This document shows, one piece after another, positions 4,735 through 62,451 of a stretch of 64,000 nt of DNA. Location: positions 4,333,501 through 4,397,500 of the forward strand of contig NC_092575.1 in assembly GCF_037975245.1 (NCBI RefSeq), given 5' to 3'. The stretch is from Apostichopus japonicus (lineage: Eukaryota > Echinodermata > Holothuroidea > Aspidochirotida > Stichopodidae). The notes under the pieces were generated by a model. It was given only the letters and a program-made list of their open reading frames with translations, was not told the DNA's origin and made no database searches. How positions within the stretch are numbered: position 1 is the stretch's first letter; each line of letters begins with the position of its first letter. Made by a program: the position numbers and the translations under genes.

Positions 4735-25450
<20,716 letters not shown>

Positions 25451-25576: not shown

Positions 25577-28543
25577 TATCATATCACATACAGGCATATT
25601 CAGGAATTCTGTTTTACATGAACGATTCTTGTTGTCTTTTTCAAAGTAATGAGGGCGCTGTTAGCATTTTTAGACACAAAATGCTGCGTCCATTTTACAG
25701 TGTAAAAGAAAGATAATTATAAATAAGTAGAAGATGAATCTGCTGTTAAATTGAAGAAAAAGTAACAAATTGTAAAATAGAGAAGTAGGAGAAGAAATCA
25801 AAATGCTGCCCTCTTTCAGCATTCTGATTCTATTTGACTGGACCTCATCATTCATTATCTTCCAACATGTTCTTCCTCAAATTACAAACAATTAATTAAT
25901 TAAGGGTTGAAATAAAACCAGCATTAATGACAGATCAATTTATATAACTATGGTGTAACGATAAATTACAAGACTATTTTCACAATATCATGACTTATGT
26001 TGACATGTGAAAATACTTGAGTAAGGGTTCTTCATCAACAATTAATGAACAGTTGACACAAATCCAACATTATATTAATATGACTGTTGTTCTGATATAT
26101 GACAGAGCAATTTAAACAGCTTATGTTAAAATGGATAAATTACAAGATTATTTTTACTCATCATGACTTGAGTGAAAATAATCGGGTGAAGGTTCCTCGT
26201 CAACAATTAATTTACATTCAACATAAACCCAACATTATTTTAATATGACAGTTATTCTGTAAAATGATAGATACAGTTATGTACTGTAACGGATAAATTA
26301 CAAGTATTATTTACACAATATCATGACTCCTGTGAAAATACTAGAGTGAAGGTTCTTCATCAACAAGTAAGCTTGAAATGAGTAGCAGATGCCATTATCA
26401 CCTTAGTCCATAAAATTATGTACCAGTCTTGTCGGTTTTGCTATTTGGTAATTTTGTAACATTTTTGAGTGTGAATAACCAAAAGCAGATAAAAGAAAAC
26501 ATATCTGTAACTTAAAACCATTCATTTTACACAATATTTGTAATAATCAATGTTTACAGTTCTTCCTAATGTAACCCTAAAAGGGTGTGTATACATCAAA
26601 TCATGCCCATTAGTGATTGACTTCCACGTTATGTTCTCTCAGGATTCCTTCCATAACATCATCAAGTTTTTCAAAAGGTAAATTTATGAAGCTACCTGCA
26701 TCTGTTGAACTTAACAAGAAGGCTTGAACCAACAATTTGATGTCATGGTTTTACATTTTACCCGATATGAAATATTTCAGACCTTTAACAATCATATCCT
26801 CAAAGGTGTAACACATCTACTTGATTGAGAGATGCAATCAGCTCTTCAATTAACATTCATATAGATGATCAGATTTCCGCAAAAGATTGTTGTTTACAAT
26901 CTTCTTTCTAAGGTCCTTACTACTGCCAGTAAAGACTCCCATGATGCATTGCGTTGTGCTTCCATAATGACTTATTTAACAGACAAGTTTTACAGAACTG
27001 TTTGTATGTATTCAGAACAAAATGATATTTTCAAAATTGCCCAATATTAGTATTTCAAACATATTATACTTACCTCACAATCAAAATTTCAGTCTTCAAT
27101 TGAATCTAAAAGATTTGATAGATAATCACATAAAGTCACCTCCATTCATTACCTGCAATCACTTTTATCATAAGATTTTACCAAAGTTTTCCATCCAGAA
27201 TGTCGTTTTTAACATTTAAATATTAAATAGCCAAGTTTAGGACAGAACATGTAACAGGACAGAATATGTAACATGAATTAATCGTTTTCGATTCATTATT
27301 TCTTATCACTACTATTAAGAGGTTTTTTCTTGGCTTAAAGACAACCTGTACAGGTTTAATAATTTTTTTAATCATGGCCAACAATTCCATGACTGTCACA
27401 AATTCCTTTGCTACAAAAATTTGACCAAGTTGCAGACAACTGGTGTTCTTTCTTAATATGATTATGCCTGACAGATATTTACTACCGTCTTACATTGATA
27501 GAATGATGTTTTACTGTTTCCCTCTTTCTTTATACACGTATATTATAGTTTTGTAAAACATTTTTGCATCCTGCAATTTTTTGCAATCAAAACAAGAGGC
27601 TGTATTTTCTATACTGTAGATGTGTTTTTTAGTAACCATAGAAACAAAAGTTGATAGCAAGGTGTTACCTGTTAAAACCAGTGGAGCTGTGACAGACAAT
27701 GGAGAATGGATTGGTATCACATGCTGATCTCATATTTTGACTGTATTTTCATACCTTATCCAAATTTGAGAACTGCTGAAACTTGGAGTGGGGTTTGGGG
27801 GTGGGGGACAGGTAGCAAGTAACTTCAAGAAATAGATCAATATTTTAGATTATATATATATTTTTAAGAATTCTGATGTTATGAAATAAGTATACAATAT
27901 GAACAGCAGTTTTTCTGCATAGAAACTTACATATGTATGCATCATGATACTATATAGGTTGGTAAATTACAATTATTCAGCTATGCTACAGAACATCACC
28001 ACCAATGCCTATCAATCTGGGCTTCCCAAGTATTTATTCAGGGAAACAGTTTGTCTTATTTACTACAAATTCTCAATATTCCATGAGATACCTTGATATT
28101 GATTTGCCAAAGACTCATTCTGATGTGTATGTCAGAATATATTTTTAAATAATGCCTTGTGATTCCGATATAAACGTACACTTCAAAAACAAAATTGGTT
28201 AAACTTTCCAAACTTTGATGGAACCACCAGTCCTAACCCACCGTCCATTCATGCTTTCATGTATTAACAGTTTAAAATCTAGGTTACATCATAATTACTG
28301 ATGTCTAGGTATTCATATACAAAAGTTATTTGTAAATATTCTATGCTTCTTGAAGCAAGTGTAAATAGGTTGTTTTGTATTGAATGTGATGCATATTACC
28401 TTTTTTTTATGATTATCTGAATGACTGTGCAGTATATTGTGTATAAATAGCAACACTACTAGTTCAAAGATACAATAAACCATTCTGTCATAATACAACA
28501 CGATGTTCTGCGTCATGTTTTCAATTGACAAGGTAATTGTCTG
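25577..28543. other. intergenic, no recognisable gene
   Basis: All ORFs here are short, AT-rich and without domains or matching splice sites. The one structured feature is the three-unit repeat at 25960-26371. Confidence 0.6.
25960..26371 (+). repeat. three-unit tandem repeat of about 160-174 bp
   Basis: Units begin with GATAAATTACAAG at 25960, 26134 and 26292. Each continues through ATCATGACT, GTGAAAATA and GGTTC(T/C)TC(A/G)TCAACAA. The third is partial. It lies just downstream of the LRRC74-like gene. Confidence 0.85.
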
Positions 28544-28803
28544 CATTACCGAGTTCAACCTGGTTAGCCCTCGCCTGGTTTATACCCGATAAAAACGACG
28601 ATTTTCCGGGGATCACGTGATCTACCAAGTTACCAAATCTTATCTAATGAAGCAGCTGCAGCAGAAATTAACTCTCAAAAAAAGAGCTTAAGGAGTAAGA
28701 TGAGGAAGCCAGTTTTGGTTGCTTCGTAGATCACGTGATACCCGGGAAATCGCCGTTTTTCCGGGTATAAACCAAGCGGAGGACTTCGGTTGAACTGGTA
28801 ATG
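28544..28803. mobile_element. 260-bp MITE with about 75-bp inverted repeats
   Basis: The left arm begins CATTACCGAGTTCAACC, and the reverse complement of the right arm begins CATTACCAGTTCAACC. The arms match through TGGTTTATACCCG and a palindromic GATCACGTGATC. The centre of about 100 bp is unrelated and carries no ORF. I could not define a target-site duplication. Confidence 0.8.
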
Positions 28804-29439
28804 TAAATATATTCTCTTTCGAAACCACCAAACAAACAGAAAGACACACAAATAAACGAAAATACCGTAATATATAGTGATATAATGATATGTCATATGC
28901 TTGCAATCTTATGAATATGAAAGAAAATATGGCGGCGATGAGTAGTATACCCTAATAGTTTTGTATTCAAGAAAAATATTCTAGCTCTAATGTTTTACAG
29001 AATTCATCATTGGTGTTACGTTATTCATAGTGCGTAACTATATTCAACTGACCAATAAGGTTCATTCAAGTGGATATGATTGCAAGATATGCACCCTATG
29101 AAGTATATGCTGCATTTAAAATAACGGTAATCAACTAAAACTACGACGATCCTGATGGTGACAACCGGAAACAGATTTTATCATTGCTCCAGATGCGTTC
29201 CCTACAACTTCCCACACCCACCTTCCAAAAGAGAAATATAGGACAAAAATTAAAAGGTAGACAAGCAGGAATCTGGACATAGTAGAATATCTTTATATAT
29301 ACGATATTTGGTTGCCACTTACAGTTCTTCCTTAGTAAAAATATATTATAATCAACTCGAAAGCTAAGTCTTAGACTAATGACAACTTCACATCTTAGCC
29401 GTTTACACCGTATACACACACCTGAATTAAACATAGCCA

Positions 29440-29745
29440 CACATGGTTACCTTACGGGCGGTTGTGGGACCCAACATTTGTCCAGCCCATCCTCTCCCCT
29501 CAAGGTAAGCCCGTCCCTTCAGGGTGACAACAGTACCCGAAAAGATTAGTGAATAACATTCTTTTTAAGAAAAGTCACCCAGCAAAGAACCTGGTCACGA
29601 AAAACCGAACGACTGATCCGCTCTCAACCCCAGTCCCCTAGCATAGAGATTGTGACTGTGTGATCATCGTCAGGTGTGTATCACGATTCCCCTCGAAGGG
29701 GAACAGATACTGCACATGACCTTAGCCAAAAGGCCGAGAGGTGAG
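29440..29745 (-). ncRNA. U2 snRNA-headed repeat (SINE or U2 pseudogene)
   Basis: Reading from 29745 leftward, the first 45 nt match the 5' end of U2 snRNA: TCTCGGCCTTTTGGCTAAG is exact, followed by GTCATGTGCAGTATCTGTTC. In U2 the branch-point-pairing element is GTAGTA; here it is GCAGTA. After TCTGTTC the similarity stops: the U2 Sm site and 3' stem-loops are absent, and about 250 bp of other sequence follows, starting with hairpin CCCCTTCGAGGGG. That fits a snRNA-headed SINE or a truncated chimeric pseudogene. It is not a functional U2 gene. Confidence 0.6.
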
Positions 29746-31429
29746 TTTAGTTAATTAGGTATGAAAACTTTCATGAATGGGTAGAACCGACGGATGGGTA
29801 TTTAACTAGACAAACATTTAAATCCTCTCTAGATTATAATCCATAAGGAATGTCCTTGTTTGTGAAGGATTATATGTCCTGTAAGTGTACTTTGGTTCGT
29901 GAAAATACACTTTCAATAGGGATGATCCTTACAACTAAGCCTAACCGTGATAATAGGGTGACATTCTGTAACATCATGAATATCTATTCAGATGTTAATT
30001 AATGCATCAGAATATTCATGACTGCAATTGATCAAGTAAAAACTTCTACTAGAATATTCATGAGTGGAAAATTCCTACTAACTGTACGTGTGTTTCATAT
30101 ACTTGCTCAGTGCTGCATGCTAGAGGAGCACATGGTTTGCTATCCTGCTGCTGTTGGAGGAGATCTATAGTAGACCGCCAAACATAGCTGAATCTTTATA
30201 ATTTTACTGCTATGGGGTAAGTTAAATATTTCCTTCTACTAATTAGTGACTTCTCTACTAAACAAAAAGGTTATATTGGTTTTAGGACAGTTAGTCTAGT
30301 CTTTTATAGTTACTTGCTAATGGGATGATAACTTCAGGGAGATTTACTAGACTTCGGCTCAAGACCTATCAATATTAGCTGTACGAACACAGTGTATTTT
30401 GTTTTCTGGCGAGGAGAAATATAAATATAAAAGTTACTAAAGGCCAAGTTTATAAGGCTTACATTTAGTAGGATCGGCCCAGTCAGTCCCCATGTAGGCT
30501 TTGGGTCTAGGTTCCTCTTGTTAGTGTTTGATAACTCCATAACGAGCTTACACTCGGGCAGGAGTTTGAGAGGGTCAGGTGAAGCTGATTTTACCAGGAT
30601 TGAAGTCGGTGTACGTCTGCATAGTTTTTATACTTACTCTAAAATAACCATCGATCATACAATCTGCCGTGAATCCCATTAACAACTTTGAGACAACACA
30701 CTTAACCACTGACAGGAAAACTGTCAGTGACCAATCTACATTTCTCGCTTTCTCGTCCTTATATAGTTTCGAATAATGTAATTGATTTTCCTCCTCTGGA
30801 CTATACCCCGTCCGGATGTTGAGAAGGTCACATTTATTTTCGATTGATGTCGATTGGCTGGATCTTTTACCGCAGTTACCGGTTTTAGAGGTAACGAGAG
30901 GTCAAGCTTGGCATAGTGCTCAAGTAAACTGAATTGTAACTACCAACCTCGTTAAGAATAACTGCGAAACACCCCCCCCCCCCCCAACAAACAGACTCGC
31001 ACCTGATTGATTTCCTTTGCACTGTAAAATAGCTTCAGACTATAAATGTACGAATAAATGATTTAGTTTGTAGTATCATTCTTCTGGCCTAAGTAATGTT
31101 TAATGATAGAACACGGAAACATTAATTGACCATTAACTTACGAGATGCATTCGAGCATACAGCAATCTTTTGATCAGCTGATTTTCCTCTGTGAAGTCAA
31201 ACCCAAACTACAGCACCCAACGGCAGTGTGGTATAGATATGGGAAGCTATCAAACAGTGGGCCGGAGACGGAGGGAGGACAAAGAAAAAAAGAAAGAGTT
31301 CCTAGTTTTTTGTATCTTCACCTGTCGAGGTTTTCTATTGTTGGTGCTTCGGTGATGGTGATAGGACAAAATCTCGACATATCTCAATTTGTTCTCTTTC
31401 CCGTATGAGTGTGACTTTTCCTCGAATAA

Positions 31430-31998
31430 AAAAAAGTACCTGTAAATACGAAATTTCGATATTTCTCAACTTAGATTGTGTCGATAGTCTTTATCTAAAC
31501 ACTTCGACTGTTTTACGATTTTATAGTTTCTTTTTTTCTCCAACTTGGACTTTTTTACTGATCTAATTTCCACTACTATATCTCAAAAATGATCGACTCT
31601 TCCCTTACACAAATTGTTATATCAACTTGTCGACTTTTCATCTCAATTCTCGAGTTTCTGTACTTTAATTCTTTTCGAATTATCCCTTTATATTGCAACA
31701 TTTAATGATTGCAAAAGTTCGACATTATAATCTCAAAATATCACATTTTCTTGAAAACTTAAGATGACGATGGTATGAATTATAGTGGGGTGGCACTAAG
31801 TATGATGGGGTGGTATGAAGTATCTTGGGTGGTACTAAGTATGAGTGGATGGTATTAAGTATCGTAGGGTAGTACTAAGTATGAGTGGATGGTATTAAGT
31901 ATCGTGAGGTGGTATACTAATTTTAATGGGATGGTATGAAGTTTCGTAGGGTGGTACTAAGTATAATGGGGTGGTATGCATGTAAGTGTAAGAAGAGC
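31430..31998 (+). repeat. minisatellite-bearing repeat element, copy A
   Basis: About 340 bp of degenerate CGACTTTTNATCTCAA-like words lead into an array at about 31775-31985 of two alternating 20-bp halves (GGTATGAAGTATCGTGGGGT and a GGTACTAAGTAT variant), about five dimers. An inverted, longer copy lies at 38728-39535. The shared boundary beyond the array (GTAAGTGTAAGAAGAGCC) shows it is one element family and not chance arrays. Confidence 0.75.
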
Positions 31999-32624
31999 CA
32001 AATTAAAGCCGTTGAATGACTTTGGTGTGTAATCAAAAATTGGACTTTTCATAGACATTTTGCAGGTCGATGTAGCAAACAAGATTTATTTCTATCTATC
32101 TATATCAAATCTCGGAAATGCTGACACCAACTAACTATTAAAGCACATTTTGTTTCTATGGTAACTTAGCCGTTTCCAATGTTACATGCGTTAAAGCTAT
32201 CTAAATGCCGATGTCATAGCAATTAGGATGTATGTGTAACTGGAGATTAGTCATGGTTGGCCACAATGTTTATGAAATTTAATGTCCATAATTTGGAACG
32301 ATCGTGAAGAGTTAACTGGAAAAAAATGACGAACAATGACGCATGCAAAAGTTCGAGTTAACCCTGACTAACTTCGGACGAATGCAATTTGGTGCATTGC
32401 CAACATCTAATGCCAAACGGATGACAACACTGGAAACATAATCGTTTGACAATTCTCGCACTTTTCAATTGTTTTCAAAATTCCCAACGTAGTTTAGAGG
32501 TCAAAATCATATACATACCATCATCTGTCGTTAGCAGTATCTTGTGGTCACTGCGTGTTTTTGAGAACTACCGAATTAAAACTTCCAACTTATTGTCATT
32601 TTTCACACCGGATTGGAGCCAATT

Positions 32625-33051
32625 ATGAAGGCGAGTGTTGTTGTTGTTGTTGTTGTCAATTATTTTTTGTTGTGGTTGTCTTTAACTGCAGACCGGGTTG
32701 AATGTGGTGTCGATGCGAGCACCGACTTTCTCGACGACGAAGCGATTGTAGATCAAGGAAATAACCATGGCAACGTTACGTACAATAACACATACGTAAA
32801 TGAGACGATATCATCTGAAGGATTTACCACCGATGGTGGTAAAACAGGACCAGGGAAAATATGTCCTTCTTATGTCCTACTACACGGTCCACCTGGCCCC
32901 GTTGGCCCACCTGGCCCAAGAGGGCTTCCTGGTACACAAGGCATGCCAGGTAATGCCGGTATGAACGGTTATAATGGTGCCGCAGGAGAATGTAGATGTA
33001 CGAGAGGACCAAGAGGGCCAGCTGGATCCCCCGGGAATCGTGGGGAGAAGG
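32625..33051 (+). CDS. C1q/collagen gene, head exon A
   Basis: 427 nt from ATG at 32625 to the phase-1 donor G|GTATGT. An earlier in-frame TTG was rejected because the ATG directly precedes the hydrophobic leader. The leader contains seven Val in a row, encoded by (GTT)6GTC. Sequons occur at N50, N54 and N59, and a single Cys80 precedes the stalk. Gly-X-Y runs from residue 88, and Cys123-x-Cys125 interrupts it. All parts align with head B. Confidence 0.75.
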
Positions 33052-36000
33052 GTATGTTCATTTGTATTTTTATTCCCTAAAAGTAGTCATTGATATAAGG
33101 ACATAGGACTTTAATAGTACATTTATGAAGGTCATGTTGAAATTCAGTTACAATAAATCATAATTATTGCCTATCGACGTTTTTGAGCGATTCGCTTCAT
33201 CTAGAAGGGAAGACACCCTTGCTAGCGAATGAGAAGAAGTCCTATTACACACTTTCAACAGAACAATATCCAGGTGCGTATCCAGGGGGGGCGTTGGGGG
33301 CGCGCGCCCCCCGGGTAAGGAAAAGAGGAGAGAAAAAAAAAGAGAAGAAAAAAGGGAAAAGGAGGGGAAAAAGAAAAGGAGGAGAGGAAGGAAGGGAAAA
33401 GAAAAAGAAAAAAGAGAGAAAAAGGAGAAAAGGAGGGAGTAGAAGATAGCCAAGACCTCGGGAAGAGAAAGATCCCTATTATATACACAGGGTAGCCAGT
33501 GACAGATCAAGGATTACGGAGGGGGTGTGCGCCTCACCCTACCCCTTACCCCGACAACTCCATTTTTGACGTTTCCGTTTTTCCTCTCTCACTAATGTAC
33601 TTGAACTCGACCGAGTCGTCGGGGAACATAACGCATTTCGGGAAGGGGGCGACCGCCCCCCCCCCCCGAGCAAATTTTCTTTATGACATCGCTAGTAATT
33701 TCAAAATAGACAATGCTTAGATGCAACTTACAAGGCCTGGGAAGTGTCATTTCCAGCGATCTGGGAGGCATTTTCGGCCAAAATTTTTCTTGTACGCTTC
33801 GCGCCAACTCATGGTGGCGCTTCGCTTAGATAGTTTGCCTACAGGCTTCCCTTGTCAATTACTAGCTACACGCCTGTTCGAATTTGTAAAGCAAAGAGCA
33901 GATATAACATCATATCAGTGAGCATTGAAATGCATGTTCCACGATGTACAGCCTCAAAAACTGTCTATGTGTGTAGTCAAAGGCGTAGGAGCCAGATTGG
34001 ATTTGGGGGCTGTAATGACTTGCCCGAAAAAAAAGCCAAAATTTTTCGCGCGCGAAGCGAGCATTCAACATGTCGATGCCAATATCATATAGGCAAGATC
34101 GGTCATTACATTGTATGGCATCGTGTACCGCACGGTCCGTCAAAGTTGCACAGTATACCGCCGGATGCTAATGTAAACAACCAAATGTCTTATGTAGATG
34201 GAGAAAAAGCATACAGATCCATTTATGTCAAAACTCTCTTTTACAGTAGTAATGTCGGCCAAGCTTAGAACTTTATTTCAATTACCAAGGAGATCATTTT
34301 AAGCTATTCATTGCTATTTATTTTTCTTTCAGTAGGTGCCCCAAAAAAATGGGAAAACAATTGGGGGGGGGCTGCAGCCCCCGCCTCCTACGGGACCTAC
34401 GCCTATGAGTGAAGTGTTCGGTTTCGATATACCTGATATCGGAAATATCTGCTATTTTTCTGTTCCTTCAACGAAGTTTTGTGAAAGCCATTATAAGAGG
34501 TTTTAATATTTGTACACCAATAAATTAACTGTGTCGGAATTTTCGAAAATTTCCTCACCAACATTCTTCATCATACTTTCCTCTACTCGTTCAATTTTGA
34601 CCTGTCTGTTAGGGGTTCAAGGAGGTTTTTCTATATTGGTTGTCTATAGATTGAATTTTGTGCAACATTATGGGTATGTTTTCAAGTGATTTTATTCACG
34701 AGAAAAGTCAATTTTCAAATTCTCAACAAGTAATGGGCTTAAAACCTTGAAAAGTGGGGCTTTCGGATATTGTGGGCCGTGACGTAGAATAGCCTACAAA
34801 AGCAATGATCCATAGGACATGCAATCAGGTCGAACATGATGTGTGACTGGTGACAATCTTCAAAAAGGTTATGGATGGAAAAAAAAAACTTTTGGGAAAT
34901 ACTTGGTTCTCAGGCAAAAGTGTACATCTGGTTGCTCATTTTCAAGCCCGAGAAGTGCCATTTCCGGTGATCTGGGGGGTATCAAAACCAGAAATTTTCT
35001 TGTACGCTCCGCGCCAACCGATGGTGGCGCTCCGCTTAGATAGTAATTCGCGCCCCCCGGGTTAGAAAATCCTGGATACGCGCCTGATATCATCTCCTCA
35101 TGGAGAGGTATACTTGAGATGGAGCGAATAGCGATAGGGCCTATCAAACAATGATAAATTAATATTGTCTGTTTTTGCGTTCCCGTGTGAGCTTCTGTGG
35201 ACTTCTGTGTATACAGGCGTCTCCCAGGTGCTCATTTTTACATTATTGTGGACGATGTCGTCCACTAATATGGATGATACAAATAATTAATCCTACACCT
35301 GCTTCCCGGAGTTTTTTTTTTGCGATTGCGAAACATTTATTCAGTAATATCGATTGAAATGAAACCTACAAAAAAAGAAAGAAAAACAAAAGACCGGAAC
35401 AATGTTATCTCAGTCGCAATTAGGGAAACGTCCTTCTAAAGAAGGGTCTGGTTTTACCTATCCAATGCCATGCGGACATTCTTGACAATTTTCCCTACTG
35501 CGTAATTCTGCCGCCCTAAGGTGAGGAGGGGGAGGGAGGGGGCGTTTTATGAAATTAGTCCACGGTCGCGTTCATCATCAATCCTACTGGTTTCGTTTTA
35601 TACATTTACTTACTCCATTTTTATAAATGTCTCGTCATTCGTAAATATAACCAAACCAGTTGGTTTGGTGGTATCTGTCAGACTTTTGCATTGTTCATAG
35701 TCATCCTACGGCCGGTTAAATCGCTGTGGTCAGTCTGTATGTTGTGGTAGTAGGAGTACAGGTGTATCATCGTGGTGAAGTCTGAATTCTGCGGTGTATC
35801 ATACGAGGTTAGGTACCACTGCGATGTGGACATCCGACGAAGACCATTTGGAAAAAAAGACAGTCTCTCCGATTTTGGCAGTCAATGAATCTAACGAATG
35901 TCAAGTTCTAGTCTCCTCTCTGTTGTAAGTGGCACTGGATTGTCTTCACGAAACCTGCATTATGTCTTTGGTCACGTGTCTCCCCACCGCCAATTAAAGC

Positions 36001-39000
36001 ACAGTAGTGTGAGTACCTACAGGGTGTGGTGAACCGTCAAATGACCAGCCGCTTTCATATACCTCGTCCGCCAAGATTAATTGTCTCCCTAACTCCAGCT
36101 GGATTGAATGAGCCTGCCTGACATAGAACGAACAGTCTGTCACCCTCACTTATCTTTGGCGTAATGGTTAAGCGACAACCGTGTTATGGTCTTTTCCTGG
36201 TCATGCTTGGATGAGAAAGGGTGGAGCAAATTAAGATCTCGTTAGTTACCAAATATTTCATTGATACCACCAGAAGTATAATATGCTGTCACGTTTTACA
36301 GTTCAATATTACGGTCCTAAACTTTCTGCATGAAGTTACAGCACAATTGCTGGTTGTTTTTTATGAGAAAATCATTTCCAAGAACTTCTGACCTTTCAAA
36401 TAGCAGAATAATTAAGATGAAGTCTAACAGTGTAGACAACGAGGATATCTTACATCACTCCTCACTTACCTGTCTCCAATATTGACGCACTCCAATCTAC
36501 CCTAGCTTATGAACTGTTAATATTCTGGCACTACGCCCCCAATAACCCTCTCTAAGGTCACTATCCGCCTTCTGAATCGTCCATTCAGAAGCCTCTGTAC
36601 GCGTGAATATAACACGATATTCGACTTTTGTTTCAACAGTACGGTAAGTTTTGGGGGTATTCATATTTTGGAAGTATGAAGGGATTTGTAAGAAATGAAA
36701 ATAATTCAACTCGTACATATAGATAGTCATAAATAAAGACAAAAGACTTTATGTATAAAACAAATAAATGACACAATGACCAACTTACATCCCGTCTGCG
36801 ACACTTCCTTCGGAGAGACACTCACTGTCTCTTTTGTATTCAGTGAGAGAACATGCATATTCATGAGCTCTCAGTACCAGTCGATGTTTTAACCAATCAA
36901 AAGAGTACATATAGAGTACATCAAGAGCAAAGGAATTATAAAGTATAACCAAATATGTCATAGGAATTTTCGGTCTCCTAGTTCAAGTTTTGTCTTCATT
37001 TTTTTGAATGAATATATTAAAGCACCAGTATGCTGCGTGTATCGCCTATAGTCCAGACAACGTCATTGGATGTGCTTCATCAGTGTAAGTTAGTGCTTAA
37101 TCCATAATTGAACAGATTTCATCGTCAGTTACGTGGCCAAAAATATTGACTGTTTTGCATGAAATGTAGGCTACTCTACTTAAAGTCGTTTTTAAGAGTG
37201 ATATACTACTTGTTGAAACATAAGATAAAGATATACATAAACTCAAAGTGGATTTCATGTATTATAATAATTGTAAAGTTTTAATATCAAACAGGGAAAA
37301 AATTCCATCGCTTTCCCCGGTCCATGAACGTCGGGCCAGATTCCTTGCAAGCGACCTCCCCCCCCCCCCCCCAAAAAAAAACTACCATAGTTGTAACGTG
37401 ATAATATATATATAAATATATATGTAACAGTAGGCCAGGGCATGATTCGTAATGCACCCTTCATTGTTTTGACAATCTGAGCAATAATTCTATTTTAATA
37501 AGTTTGATTCTAATCGTCACCGATACTTTGATCCTATCGTTTCCCGAACGGAATTCTCTTTTCTGTTGAGATGGTAACCAGGCCATTTCCTGTAATAAAA
37601 ATGAAGTCATTTTTTGTATACGCTGTATACTGTGTGATGGCAGAAGGAATGCTACTGTCAACTCATCGAGAACAACCGCTATGACCCTACGAAGAGGTAT
37701 CTTGAAAATAGAAAGAGAAACATCGGAAATATAATGTGATTGTATCGCGATGTCTGAGGGAAAACATTTAGACGTGTTAGGTTGATCTTAGAAGGACAAA
37801 TTTGCATTTACTTCAGATACAGTCGGTCTTCACACACTGTTTTATTATGGTTAAGTTCCACTGCGCTTTGTGAAGGAAGAAAGTCTAGAGGTGTATTCGT
37901 TTGATTTCTTCTTCTGTGTTTTTGCAAACGGTGTAATCTTGGACATGCCAAATATGGCATCTGGCAATGAGAAGGTTGCATTGTTTTTATTGGTTGCTAT
38001 GTTGCCAATTTACGTCGATTCTGCTGTAGACGCAAATCATGACTTTTTTGAAGGATTCTCGGCCCCTGATTCTACCCAATCACCTGAGACTAGTAACAGT
38101 ACTGGACGCGAAGCCAAACCTGTCGTACCCAGAACTGAATCGAAGGGAGGCAAGTCACAATGTGAATCGCAAGATAAACGTCTGGTAATTCTGCCCGGTC
38201 CCCATGGACCCCCTGGTTCTCCCGGTCCAAGAGGTATGCCTGGACCTCCTGGGATACCAGGATATTCCGGTATGAATGGCCACAACGGTGAACCTGGTTT
38301 GTGCACTTGTTTGAAAGGCCCAAAGGGGTATAGCGGTCCGATGGGAAGAGAAGGGGCAACGGGTAAGTAGGTATACCGCAAATAAGTATACATTTGGATA
38401 TTAAATTCTGCTCTACTATTCCCTTAATCTTAAACGGTTAAAGGGAACTAGTCACCATTTTGAACGAATAAGTATTCGCTGTATCTATGGTGACGGTAAA
38501 TTAAAATCCCACAGGACCTCGTATACTTTGATGGACGTATGCGTTTTACGCTCCGTAACCATTGTGATAATTTCTTTTACAGGATGGCATATTTTTAACG
38601 TGAAAAACGAAAACGGAGGCAAAATTTGATACTTATAAATATTTAGGTGTAATAGATGGGGGTTGGGTGCTTTGTCACAATAATTACCATAAGTTGTGTT
38701 TTGGGGTAACAAAATCGACTCTCTTTTGGCTGTTCGTACCCTTACACTACTCTAACTTACTTAGTACCACCCCACGATACTTCATACCATCCCATCATAC
38801 TTAGTACCACCCCAAGATACTTCATACCACCCCATCATACTAAGTACTACCCCACGATAATTCATACCAACCCACCATACTTAGTACCACCTCACGATAC
38901 TTCATACCACCCCATCATACTTAGTACCACTCCACGATACTTCATACCACCCCATCATACGTAGTACCACCCACGATAATTGATATCACCCCATCATTCT

Positions 39001-41931
39001 TAGTACCAACCCACGATACTTCATACCACCCCGTCATACTTAGTACCACCCCACGACAATTCATACCACCCCATCATACTTAGAACCACCCCACGATACT
39101 TCATACCACCCCATCATACTTAGTACCACCCCACGATACTTCTTACCACCCCATCATACTTAGTACCACCCCACGATACTTCTTACCACCCCATCATACG
39201 TAGTACCACCCACGATAATTGATATCACCCCATCATACTTAGTACCACATCACGACACTTCATACCAACCCATCATACTTAGTACCACCCTTACGATTCT
39301 TCATACCACCCCATCATAATAAGTACTACCCCACGATCCTTCAATATCATCATAATCCTTAAATGTTCAAGAAAATGTGATATTTTGAGAATATATAGTC
39401 GAACTTTGGCAATGATAAAATGTTGCAATTTTAAGGAATAATTCGAAATAAAATTTAAGTCAGAAACCCCCAAAATTGAGATAAAAAGTCGACAATTTGG
39501 TATAAATGTGTAAAGAAAGAGTCGAGCTGTAACCATAGTGAGAATTTCCTTTACAAGGTGGAGTTTTTTTTTCGTGAAACACGAAAAAGGAGGCAAAATT
39601 GTGCATTTTCACAATAATTACTATAAGTTGTTTGAACTGTAATTTAGCAAATTTTTAGTATCGTAATCTAGATGGTAAGAGTATTCACATGAGACATTAA
39701 CAGTTTTTTAACCTTGATATATTGTGCAACAATTCTCATTTCATGTGCTCCCTCCCGTTCACGCCCTCGCCGAAGAGAAAAAAGGTAGGACACAATAAAT
39801 AATGTCATTTTTCAGATAAATGCATCATCTTATCCGTGGACTATTCACAACAATTAAAAGAAATTATTTCTATTAAACAGGCGTTCAAGGTCCACGTGGA
39901 TCACCGGGATCAGCTGGTGATACTGGGCTTCCCGGACCAACTGGCGAAAAGGGTGACCCTGGGAATTGCACAGGAGCAGGAGCTAAGGGTGACACTGGTC
40001 CCCCTGGACCACCAGGAAAACGAGGTTGGTGTTCGTTTCATATCTCGTTAAGTAAGCTTGAAGGTATATGCTTATTAAGAGCTCTCTCACAATCAGACAC
40101 ATAAAAACGTGTGATGAAATGTGGAGAACAAACATTTGTCCCCACCTAACGTCTCTACCCGGGATGTCTCCGGGCTGGCCCTGCCTCGATGCAAAACTCA
40201 AAAGTTACGTCACTCGATGATTCGAAATCTTGCTGTCCATTGCATTACTGTCACCTCTTATTTTGACACTTGCGCTAAAACAGTGTGTACCTTTACACGT
40301 TCACCAGAACAAAACTAAATTTCCCTTCAAAGAGATTAGTTAATGACCTCTAGCTCATAACATGGCAGATTATTGGCGATCCTCAGTGACGATTCTGAAC
40401 TGTTAGGCTAACTATGTAAAAATACATTACATTCTGACTTGAAAATTGTAGCAATTAAAAAAAAAAAAAAAAGCATGATTGTAGTAAAAGAGCGCCATCT
40501 TTATTTCTGCGTTATAACATAATCTGTGCAACTTTAATTTTCAGGCGCCTCGGGCGAAAACGGAGAACCCGGCGAACCTGGTGCGGATGCCGTGTGTGAC
40601 GCTCAGCTCTGTCGCGATTCGGCAGTAAGGTCCGCTCCATCAGACACTGATCAGTCTGACGGTGGTACAAGGGACAGGAAACGAAACTTTTCGGCATTTT
40701 CCGTCTCACGATTCGGGACGGCGGAAGCCTTAGTCGACACGGAAATAATCACATGGGATCACGAATTTTCTAATGTCGGTGGTGACTTTTCACCTGAGAC
40801 AGGAATATTTAATTGTTCCATCGCAGGTAGGTTGTCTGAAGGTATTTAGCAGTAAATTGTGCGCAGTTTCTTTGTCAACCTTCAGATGTTGACGTTGTCA
40901 TTTTTGCATAGGCTACATGTCTTCCGTACACCAAATATGTGTCTGCCACGTAACACCCCTCCCACCTTTCCCCACCCTCCGAACCGGTAGGACATCGGCT
41001 GCTGTGATAGTAATAACTGCCTATGATTTTAACTTGTATCGATTAGCACAATAGCGATCTCGTCGTCTCGGTTCGGCTACATTACAAACAGGTCGCTATC
41101 ACAAGAAACAAGCGTCCGTTGTGAAAACAAATGCTGAGACGTTTTTTTATCTGTTTTGCTGTTGCTCTTTCCTGCCGCGACTCAGGCGAGTGAGAGGGGG
41201 ATTAGCGAATTACATCACAGGGGCCCGTATAAAATATGGAGGGGGGGGGGGGGGGTTGTCCATACTATACATTAGGAAACATGGTCAAAGGACCCGGTGT
41301 CTAATTCACCGGAGGTCGGCTTTTTGCTGTTGTTGTTTTTGCTTTGTTTTTATTTTTATTTTTTGTTTGTTAGTTTGGGGTGCTGGAGTAACATCTTTTT
41401 ATTCTTTTCCAGGTTTCTACTTCTTTACATTCCATATTTACAAGTCATCATCTGCTAACTATCCAATGGTCAGACTCATGTTGAACGGTAAGTTTACGTA
41501 AAGAGGAGTGAAACAAAACGGTTGCCCCACATGGAATACGCTAGAAAGATATATAAAAAAAACACCTCCACCGATTGATATCTCGTTTCACCCACCTCCC
41601 CCACCCAGAAAAATTCTTTTTATATAATATATACATGTTATATAGAGAGTTTAGTATGTACAGAAATATATATATTATTATTATATATATTATATCACAG
41701 TTATTATAATATCATTTTTTTTAAATAATATCATATTTGTTTGTAGGAGAAGTACAGGTATCCATCATTGATGCCGATTATTGGGACAGCGAAGATTCTT
41801 CGTCTAATTCTGTTATCCTAGAGTTGAGTGTTGGCGATATTATCTGGTTGGATCTCTATGAAGGACGGGTATTACATAGCAGTTACTACCGTTATACTAC
41901 GTTCTCTGGGACTCTGTTACACGCTAGATGA
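32625..41931 (+). CDS. Collagen-like C1q-domain secreted protein with two alternative first exons
   Basis: Shared exons 39881-40024, 40545-40826, 41413-41487 and 41747-41931 follow either head exon A (32625-33051, giving 370 aa) or head exon B (37945-38362, giving 367 aa). All junctions are phase 1 and split a Gly codon. Each protein has a signal peptide, a short N-glycosylatable segment with one Cys, a Gly-X-Y stalk interrupted by a Cys-X-Cys, more Gly-X-Y, a basic cluster RDRKR, and a C1q domain. Diagnostic C1q features are FSPETGIFNCSIAGFYFF, GDIIWLDLYEG and FSGTLL. C1q/TNF-like heads trimerise, and family members act in complement-like recognition, lectin-type binding or as hormones. The ligand is unknown. 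No separate 3' exons exist for head A in 33052-37944, so I infer alternative promoters. An orphaned duplicate exon is the alternative. Confidence 0.85.
33271..35086. mobile_element. 1.8-kb DNA element with 16-bp TIRs and ATATC target-site duplication
   Basis: The left end is CAGGTGCGTATCCAGG (33271-33286). The right end 35071-35086 is its reverse complement with one mismatch. ATATC directly flanks both sides (33266-33270 and 35087-35091). Inside are purine-rich runs, two related copies of a CGCCAAC..ATGGTGGCGCT repeat (33721-33835 and 34937-35045) and a nested element at 33981-34404. No transposase is visible, so it is non-autonomous. It lies in the intron after head exon A. Confidence 0.75.
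33981..34404. mobile_element. nested element with AGGCGTAGG inverted ends
   Basis: The left end is AGGCGTAGGAGCC. The reverse complement of the right end is AGGCGTAGGTCCC. GGGGGCT near the left end and GGGGGGGGGCTGCAGCCCCC near the right are further shared composition. No ORF domain is seen. It sits wholly inside the 33271-35086 element and so inserted later, or travels with it. Confidence 0.55.
35092..37944. other. region between the C1q heads with no exon seen
   Basis: I searched all frames for Gly-X-Y or C1q-like coding and found none. The short ORFs (such as 36497-36742 minus) have no domain. A run of 16 C precedes A8 at about 37358-37380. The promoter for head B should lie in the last few hundred bases. 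Confidence 0.55.
37945..38362 (+). CDS. C1q/collagen gene, head exon B
   Basis: 418 nt from ATG (37945) to the phase-1 donor G|GTAAGT. A second in-frame ATG at 37954 is an alternative start. The leader is VALFLLVAMLPIYV; sequon N51-S-T; Cys73 precedes the stalk. Gly-X-Y starts at about residue 85 and is interrupted by Cys120-x-Cys122. It aligns with head A over the stalk (PGPRGxPG..G.PG..GMNG.NG). Confidence 0.85.
38555..39641 (+). repeat. inverted copy B of the minisatellite element with flanking direct repeats
   Basis: An array of about 14 dimers (TACCACCCCACGATACTTCA plus a TACCACCCCATCATACTTAG half) fills 38758-39345 and is followed to 39535 by degenerate CGAC-type words. It is the reverse complement of copy A at 31430-31998. 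A 100-150 bp sequence (GTAACCAT..GGAGGCAAAATT..CACAATAATTAC) flanks the array directly at 38555-38701 and 39539-39641. Confidence 0.8.
39881..40024 (+). CDS. C1q/collagen gene, shared exon 1 (stalk)
   Basis: 144 nt, acceptor AAACAG, phase 1-1. It encodes 48 residues of Gly-X-Y with one interruption (GNCTGAGAKG) that carries a Cys and an N-C-T sequon. Confidence 0.9.
40545..40826 (+). CDS. C1q/collagen gene, shared exon 2 (end of stalk, start of C1q)
   Basis: 282 nt, phase 1-1. The last Gly-X-Y triplets are followed by a linker with two Cys (VCDAQLC) and the basic cluster RDRKR, then C1q strands starting FSAFSVSR and ending FNCSIAG. Confidence 0.9.
41413..41487 (+). CDS. C1q/collagen gene, shared exon 3 (C1q core)
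   Basis: 75 nt, phase 1-1, acceptor TTTTCCAG, donor GTAAGT. It encodes FYFFTFHIYKSSSANYPMV, the central C1q strands. Confidence 0.9.
41747..41931 (+). CDS. C1q/collagen gene, shared exon 4 (C1q end and stop)
   Basis: 185 nt, acceptor TTGTAG. It holds the hallmark GDIIWLDLYEG and FSGTLLHAR, then TGA at 41929-41931. The chain ends right at the domain end, as is typical for C1q proteins. Confidence 0.92.
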
Positions 41932-42600
41932 AAGACAGCCAGCCGGAACTTCATCTAACGATAATGTAAACTCTTTAATTTATCACGTATTAGGATAGTG
42001 GGTGCAGCAGAGTAGGCAACCAAATATTACCATAGTTGAGATGTAGGCACTTTGAGGCTTTGTGAGAGTTACATGGGTTACGGGGACAGTGTGGGGAGTG
42101 GGTATGAGGTGAGGGCCGAAAGGGGAGGTGGGGGGGGGGGGGTGGAAAGAGGTCAGGGCTGAAGGTGTCAATGCATACAGTGACAAAAGTGCTAGGAGGA
42201 ACATTATATTACTGAATGCATTAACAATCCAGTTTCAAACCATTTCAATACCTTCCAGGAATGTGTAGTTTGAACAACAAAACTCTTTAACCACACCCAC
42301 TTCCAGGACACCACCCACCCACCCACCCTTGTGAATGTTCCAAGCAGAAACACCTCTGTGCTTTTCACACGATATCTCTTTGGATTATTTGTGACCAACC
42401 AAGGCAAGGGTCAGCAGTGCTAGAAGTTGAGAATTTGCTAGGTAGATGAGAGGCATGTGAAAACAGGATAACAGGGTAAGGTTAATTTGTAAATACACAA
42501 ACCAAGATATTTCCTGTTATTAATAGACGAACCTAACTGGGTATCCCTCAGTTTGAGCAAAGTATGGCCTTTCATGATATGTACACAGCTATTGCATAAT

Positions 42601-48580: not shown

Positions 48581-62451
<13,871 letters not shown>

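Follow-up and report, generated by a model that had tools for sequence, protein, structure and literature searches.

The stretch of DNA that was analysed (64 kb, hereafter the window) is AT-rich, with 31-42% G+C per 4 kb, is probably of animal origin judging by its domains, and its central part carries exons that encode collagen-like and C1q-like sequence. Two of these exons, which we call heads A and B, lie in tandem upstream of a single set of four further exons, as follows.

32625-33051, plus strand: head exon A, encoding a signal-like segment, three N-glycosylation sequons and Cys80, followed by a stalk of 12 Gly-X-Y triplets, an RCTR break with Cys-X-Cys, five further Gly-X-Y triplets and a split Gly codon; donor GTATGT.
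33052-37944, plus strand: interval between the heads, six frames without a C1q or collagen match, the best Pfam match to any family being E=0.13.
33271-35086, no strand assigned: insertion of 1816 bp that resembles a transposon, located between the heads, with 16-bp terminal inverted repeats (15/16) and a flanking duplication, ATATC.
37945-38362, plus strand: head exon B, encoding a signal-like segment, one sequon and Cys73, followed by a stalk of 12 Gly-X-Y triplets, a TCLK break with Cys-X-Cys, five further Gly-X-Y triplets and a split Gly codon; donor GTAAGT.
39881-40024, plus strand: shared stalk exon, 144 bp, both ends in phase 1.
40545-40826, plus strand: shared exon with the end of the stalk, then a linker (two Cys and RKR), then the start of the C1q domain.
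41413-41487, plus strand: shared C1q exon, 75 bp.
41747-41931, plus strand: shared last coding exon, with the remaining C1q domain and the stop codon.

When the exons are joined in silico, head A and the four shared exons form a single open frame of 370 amino acids ending at 41931, and head B and the same four exons form a single open frame of 367 amino acids with the same stop, reproducing the chain lengths given in a preliminary description of this locus. That description had also claimed that the last codon of either head is a Gly codon split in phase 1, in fit with the 39881 exon; its coordinates, phases and open frames hold. The lengths of exons A and B both leave a remainder of one when divided by three, so one base of a Gly codon is left at each end, and the Gly register is kept via a split Gly codon at the junctions after head A, head B and the 39881 exon. 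All introns are of the GT-AG type (five GT donors, four AG acceptors). The donors of both heads are good. Two sites are weaker, namely the GTTGGT donor at 40024 and the 39881 acceptor, whose tract is about half pyrimidines. The resulting layout is that of a variable-first-exon gene, with two tandem paralogous first coding exons of the same phase and one downstream constant set.

The predicted chains end in a C1q domain that covers the entire Pfam profile (PF00386, positions 1-127 of 127; E=2.6e-24 for chain A and 3.3e-24 for chain B), preceded by a collagen stalk (PF01391; E=7.3e-19 and 1.6e-16, respectively), while a third Pfam match, BclA_C, falls under its cut-off. With E up to 0.001, the C1q part has matches to 38 distinct solved sequences. 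The top whole-sequence scores belong to multi-copy constructs (a cerebellin-1 fusion, 151.1 bits; adiponectin, 104.3; C1q, 95.1), the best single-domain solved chains are caprin-2 (72.6 bits) and C1q-like 2 (71.6 bits), and lower scores are found for cerebellins, collagens X and VIII, adiponectin, C1q A, B and C, EMILIN-1 and CTRP5. Given the C1q and collagen matches, the protein is a collagen–C1q chain. A scan of viral contigs with the chain returned 12 stretches at six loci, all stalk-like, five of the loci falling within query residues 84-222 and one within 7-208; the C1q domain was reached by none of the six.

In both chains the stalk has the same geometry: 12 triplets ending in Cys, a four-residue break creating Cys-X-Cys (RCTR in chain A, TCLK in chain B), 15 triplets running over the shared junction, a three-residue break and 10 triplets. 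The N-terminal segments both contain Cys and a hydrophobic core, with a KD15 maximum of 2.47 in head A and 2.28 in head B, and are signal-like by hydrophobicity alone. Sequons occur at residues 50, 54 and 59 of head A and at residue 51 of head B, with three further ones in the shared part. The head anatomy proposed earlier thus stands as to the signal-like segment, the sequons and the Gly-X-Y repeat broken by Cys-X-Cys, but not as to the single Cys, as head A also has Cys27; since this residue lies near the likely zone of signal cleavage, whether head A has one Cys depends on the position of the cleavage. Residues 235-237 of chain A (40676-40684), just N-terminal of the C1q domain, form a basic RKR, which may serve in proprotein cleavage and so release the C1q head, the motif being short of the full furin consensus.

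Taken as a whole, the locus reads best as one gene for a secreted collagen–C1q protein of C1q-like/CTRP architecture, in which the first coding exon would come in two alternatives; we assign this reading a probability of about 0.6. Of the two-headed locus proposed in the preliminary description, the part that stands is that duplicated first exons able to feed one shared 3' half are the best fit to the sequence; the use of both heads we infer.

In the main competing explanation, head A belongs to a separate tandem gene and is the first exon that survives of it: the stalk and C1q exons of that gene would have been deleted recently or be missing from the assembly or haplotype, with splicing from head A to 39881 being accidental or absent. 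Tandem duplication of entire genes is common. Remains of a second stalk and C1q set were sought by several approaches. With head, stalk and C1q pieces as queries, tblastn and phmmer found nothing credible outside the gene in the entire window (the best outside C1q match had E=1.2), and Pfam found no C1q or collagen match in the six stop-masked frames of 33052-37944. In the three plus-strand frames of 27000-32623, 38363-39880 and 40025-64000, Pfam found no stalk or C1q exon besides the gene's own; beyond the interval between the heads, these searches covered the plus strand from 27000, with the minus strand and the plus strand before 27000 represented by ten chosen ORFs only. Gly-X-Y runs of at least six triplets are present in three of the 2900 ORFs of the window, these being both heads and the 39881 exon. 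When both strands were scanned for Gly-X-Y exons in phase 1 with at least four triplets, the only matches outside the gene were two low-complexity ones without a donor. As a positive control, Pfam applied in the same way to 40025-42600 recovered two of the three real C1q exons, with E=0.0009 for the 40545 exon (under the curated cut-off) and 1.1e-5 for the other, and missed the 75-bp exon, so small or diverged exons could escape. The earlier claim that no second stalk or C1q set lies between the heads is supported by the tblastn, phmmer and ORF searches, the six-frame Pfam search of the interval and the scan for Gly-X-Y exons. The absence of such a fragment between the heads speaks against a separate gene, as does the absence of runs of N anywhere in the window.

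The surroundings of the heads speak in the other direction. The block from head A to head B is bounded by two repeats with a 40-bp-period minisatellite, 31593-32002 and 38725-39525, in opposite orientation (the inverted match, 31593-31976 versus 39144-39525, is 81.5% over 390 bp), and if the segment between them were inverted, both heads would be turned round. Between the heads lies the transposon-like insertion, its flanking duplication intact, in which no transposase domain was found; a similarity of about 80% is seen between two of its pieces (33735-33834 and 34946-35044) and between 33701-33831 and 6506-6637. With such an insertion and flanking inverted repeats the region may have been rearranging.

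The state of head A itself also speaks against a separate gene. Its frame, its donor and its stalk Gly codons are intact: all 17 stalk Gly codons are kept in both heads, though 12 of the 17 differ at the third base. In a neutral simulation (5000 runs per level, substitutions only), head A kept its frame and all 17 Gly codons in 41% of runs at 0.02 substitutions per site, 11% at 0.05, 1.2% at 0.1 and 0.02% at 0.2. With 12 of 17 Gly codons differing at the third base, the heads have been separate far longer than such neutral survival allows, and as frame and Gly codons remained intact over this long separation, head A was under selection, at least until recently. This constraint demonstrates a function of head A until recently, but not its present-day splicing to 39881, and a loss of function within about 0.05 substitutions per site fits the simulation, in which 11% of runs were still intact at that level. 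Weighing these points, we consider it rather unlikely that head A is a relic of a separate gene.

Another explanation is that head A alone encodes a short secreted collagen-like peptide, terminated at an in-frame stop in the intron (33078-33080) with polyadenylation just after it. The frame does continue for eight codons beyond the split Gly codon to this stop, and an AATAAA is present just 3' of it, at 33152. However, AATAAA or ATTAAA are frequent locally (seven in the 4.9-kb interval), the donor of head A is a good consensus match, and a stalk devoid of a trimerising C1q head would be unusual, making such a product quite improbable.

As to the relation between the two heads, they are paralogues, 36% identical over 127 amino acids, with a similarity well beyond chance (phmmer E about 2e-19 in both directions, among 2900 window ORFs of at least 15 amino acids). 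Over all 137 aligned codons, dN is 0.70 and dS 2.5 by NG86 (0.80 and 1.6, respectively, by YN00), and third positions differ at 69%. The 55 stalk codons give a dN of 0.38 and a dS of 1.9 (NG86), whereas the 82 N-terminal codons give a dN of 1.0, with dS not estimable, so that the N-terminal segment has diverged freely while the stalk stayed constrained. By these values, heads A and B are old paralogues, with synonymous sites near saturation. The alignment has three gaps in the N-terminal part versus zero in the 55 stalk codons, numbers too few for the isometric stalks to be claimed as proof of co-assembly. At the DNA level, the sole same-strand match with E<1e-5 between 31000-36500 and 36500-39880 is 95 bp long at 70.5%. 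Three observations speak against the reading as alternative first exons: the best DNA match between the regions upstream of the two heads has an E of only about 8, no TATA-type match is present within 300 bp upstream of the ATG of either head, and the 39881 acceptor has a weak pyrimidine tract. That the heads might be uncollapsed alleles or an assembly duplication, as their tandem position in the same orientation could suggest, has next to no probability: alleles would be nearly identical, and not 36% identical at the amino acid level with near-saturated synonymous sites and a best same-strand match of just those 95 bp. A haplotype or assembly duplication of the heads is thus refuted by their divergence.

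If both first exons of this collagen–C1q gene are in use, transcription of head A and of head B would start at separate upstream promoters, promoter choice would set the head, and both heads, phase-compatible as they are, would splice to the acceptor at 39881. An RNA begun at head A would skip head B, since first exons have no 3' splice site. No acceptor with at least 70% pyrimidines was found before head B in our scan, but this threshold also rejects the shared 39881 acceptor, and for this reason the scan cannot prove that head B is free of an acceptor to which head A might be spliced. Two chains would result, with a common second half of the stalk and a common C1q head, differing in the N-terminal segment and in the first half of the stalk. 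With equal numbers of triplets and the Cys-X-Cys break in the same position, chains A and B could zip up with their stalks in register, and either homotrimers or mixed trimers would be nucleated by the common C1q domain, mixed trimers being expected if both chains are co-produced in one cell. As the C1q head is common to both chains, the likely effect would not be on ligand binding; instead, the heads would alter glycosylation and the N-terminal, disulfide-linked higher-order assembly. We only tentatively propose, and with less confidence than the gene structure itself, that the duplicated isometric first exons provide two kinds of N-terminus, which would come together within one trimer on a common C1q head. 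Were this the case, a single recognition protein would have its glycosylation and higher-order assembly set by promoter choice, with no need of a second gene, the swap of the N-terminal half by first-exon choice would show one gene setting oligomer form separately from ligand binding, and the locus would illustrate an intermediate between one gene and two in the C1q family.

As to known systems, complement C1q is composed of three chains with different C1q heads, encoded by separate genes; its chains possess an N-terminal Cys, a broken collagen stalk and a C1q head, all features also found here, and it trimerises through the C1q domain. The parallel with mammalian C1q drawn in the preliminary description is nevertheless a loose one, because both chains here would carry an identical C1q head, a single set of C1q exons having been found. 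A direct precedent, closer than complement C1q, is CTRP3 (C1QTNF3), which to our knowledge is devoid of duplicated heads. According to one report, this gene makes two associating secreted chains, CTRP3A and CTRP3B, which are unlike in length, in glycosylation and in the numbering of their N-terminal Cys, CTRP3B being quickly degraded unless joined with CTRP3A (PMC7744821). It is likewise one collagen–C1q gene with two associating N-terminal variants; however, CTRP3B is a longer N-terminal splice form, while here paralogous first exons, including the first half of the stalk, would replace each other. Another precedent closer than complement C1q is the CTRP-family gene C1QTNF1 (CTRP1), for which alternative first exon use in RNA is reported from human placenta, with three events tabulated (PMC6471577); the passages in question do not call its first exons paralogous coding exons, as both heads are here. 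The gene layout itself is reminiscent of three known clusters, UGT1, GCNT2 and protocadherin, in which tandem similar first exons lie 5' of common constant exons, and in UGT1 and GCNT2, according to one report, every variable exon has its own promoter (PMC1885805). The difference is that only two heads are present here, in a collagen–C1q protein, and that separate promoters and splicing are predicted here.

With regard to the pairing of chains, the C1q domain can suffice for the formation of CTRP heteromers, seen only on co-expression, with no role for the variable domains and their Cys, according to a study in which the heteromers tabulated in one passage pair products of different genes (PMC9952994). 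Mixed A/B trimers would, by analogy, be plausible. Collagen-bearing C1q proteins have been placed in Echinodermata, Hemichordata, Mollusca and Annelida, among others, in the review literature (PMC11312191), and a word search of the text of a review of invertebrate C1q-domain proteins returned neither 'splic' nor 'isoform' (PMC10672478). No description of duplicated first coding exons in a C1q/collagen gene was found in open-licence PMC titles and abstract starts, among the matches listed. Neither the layout nor the family is unfamiliar, both being well described, but the two in combination would be new.

Other features of the window include plus-strand ORFs at 16086-22301 with leucine-rich repeats, which pass the cut-off, and with EF-hands, which at E about 1e-4 to 1e-3 fall short of theirs; they are perhaps parts of one LRR/EF-hand gene, conceivably of the LRRC74 type. 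On the minus strand, an ORF at 61212-61556 encodes a partial THAP domain (E=1e-6), and a tRNA match (Rfam RF00005, 47 bits) is found at 156-228, near a TA repeat at 30-107. A 27-bp minisatellite of 42 copies occupies 50930-52062 and is open in several frames, thus producing long spurious ORFs.
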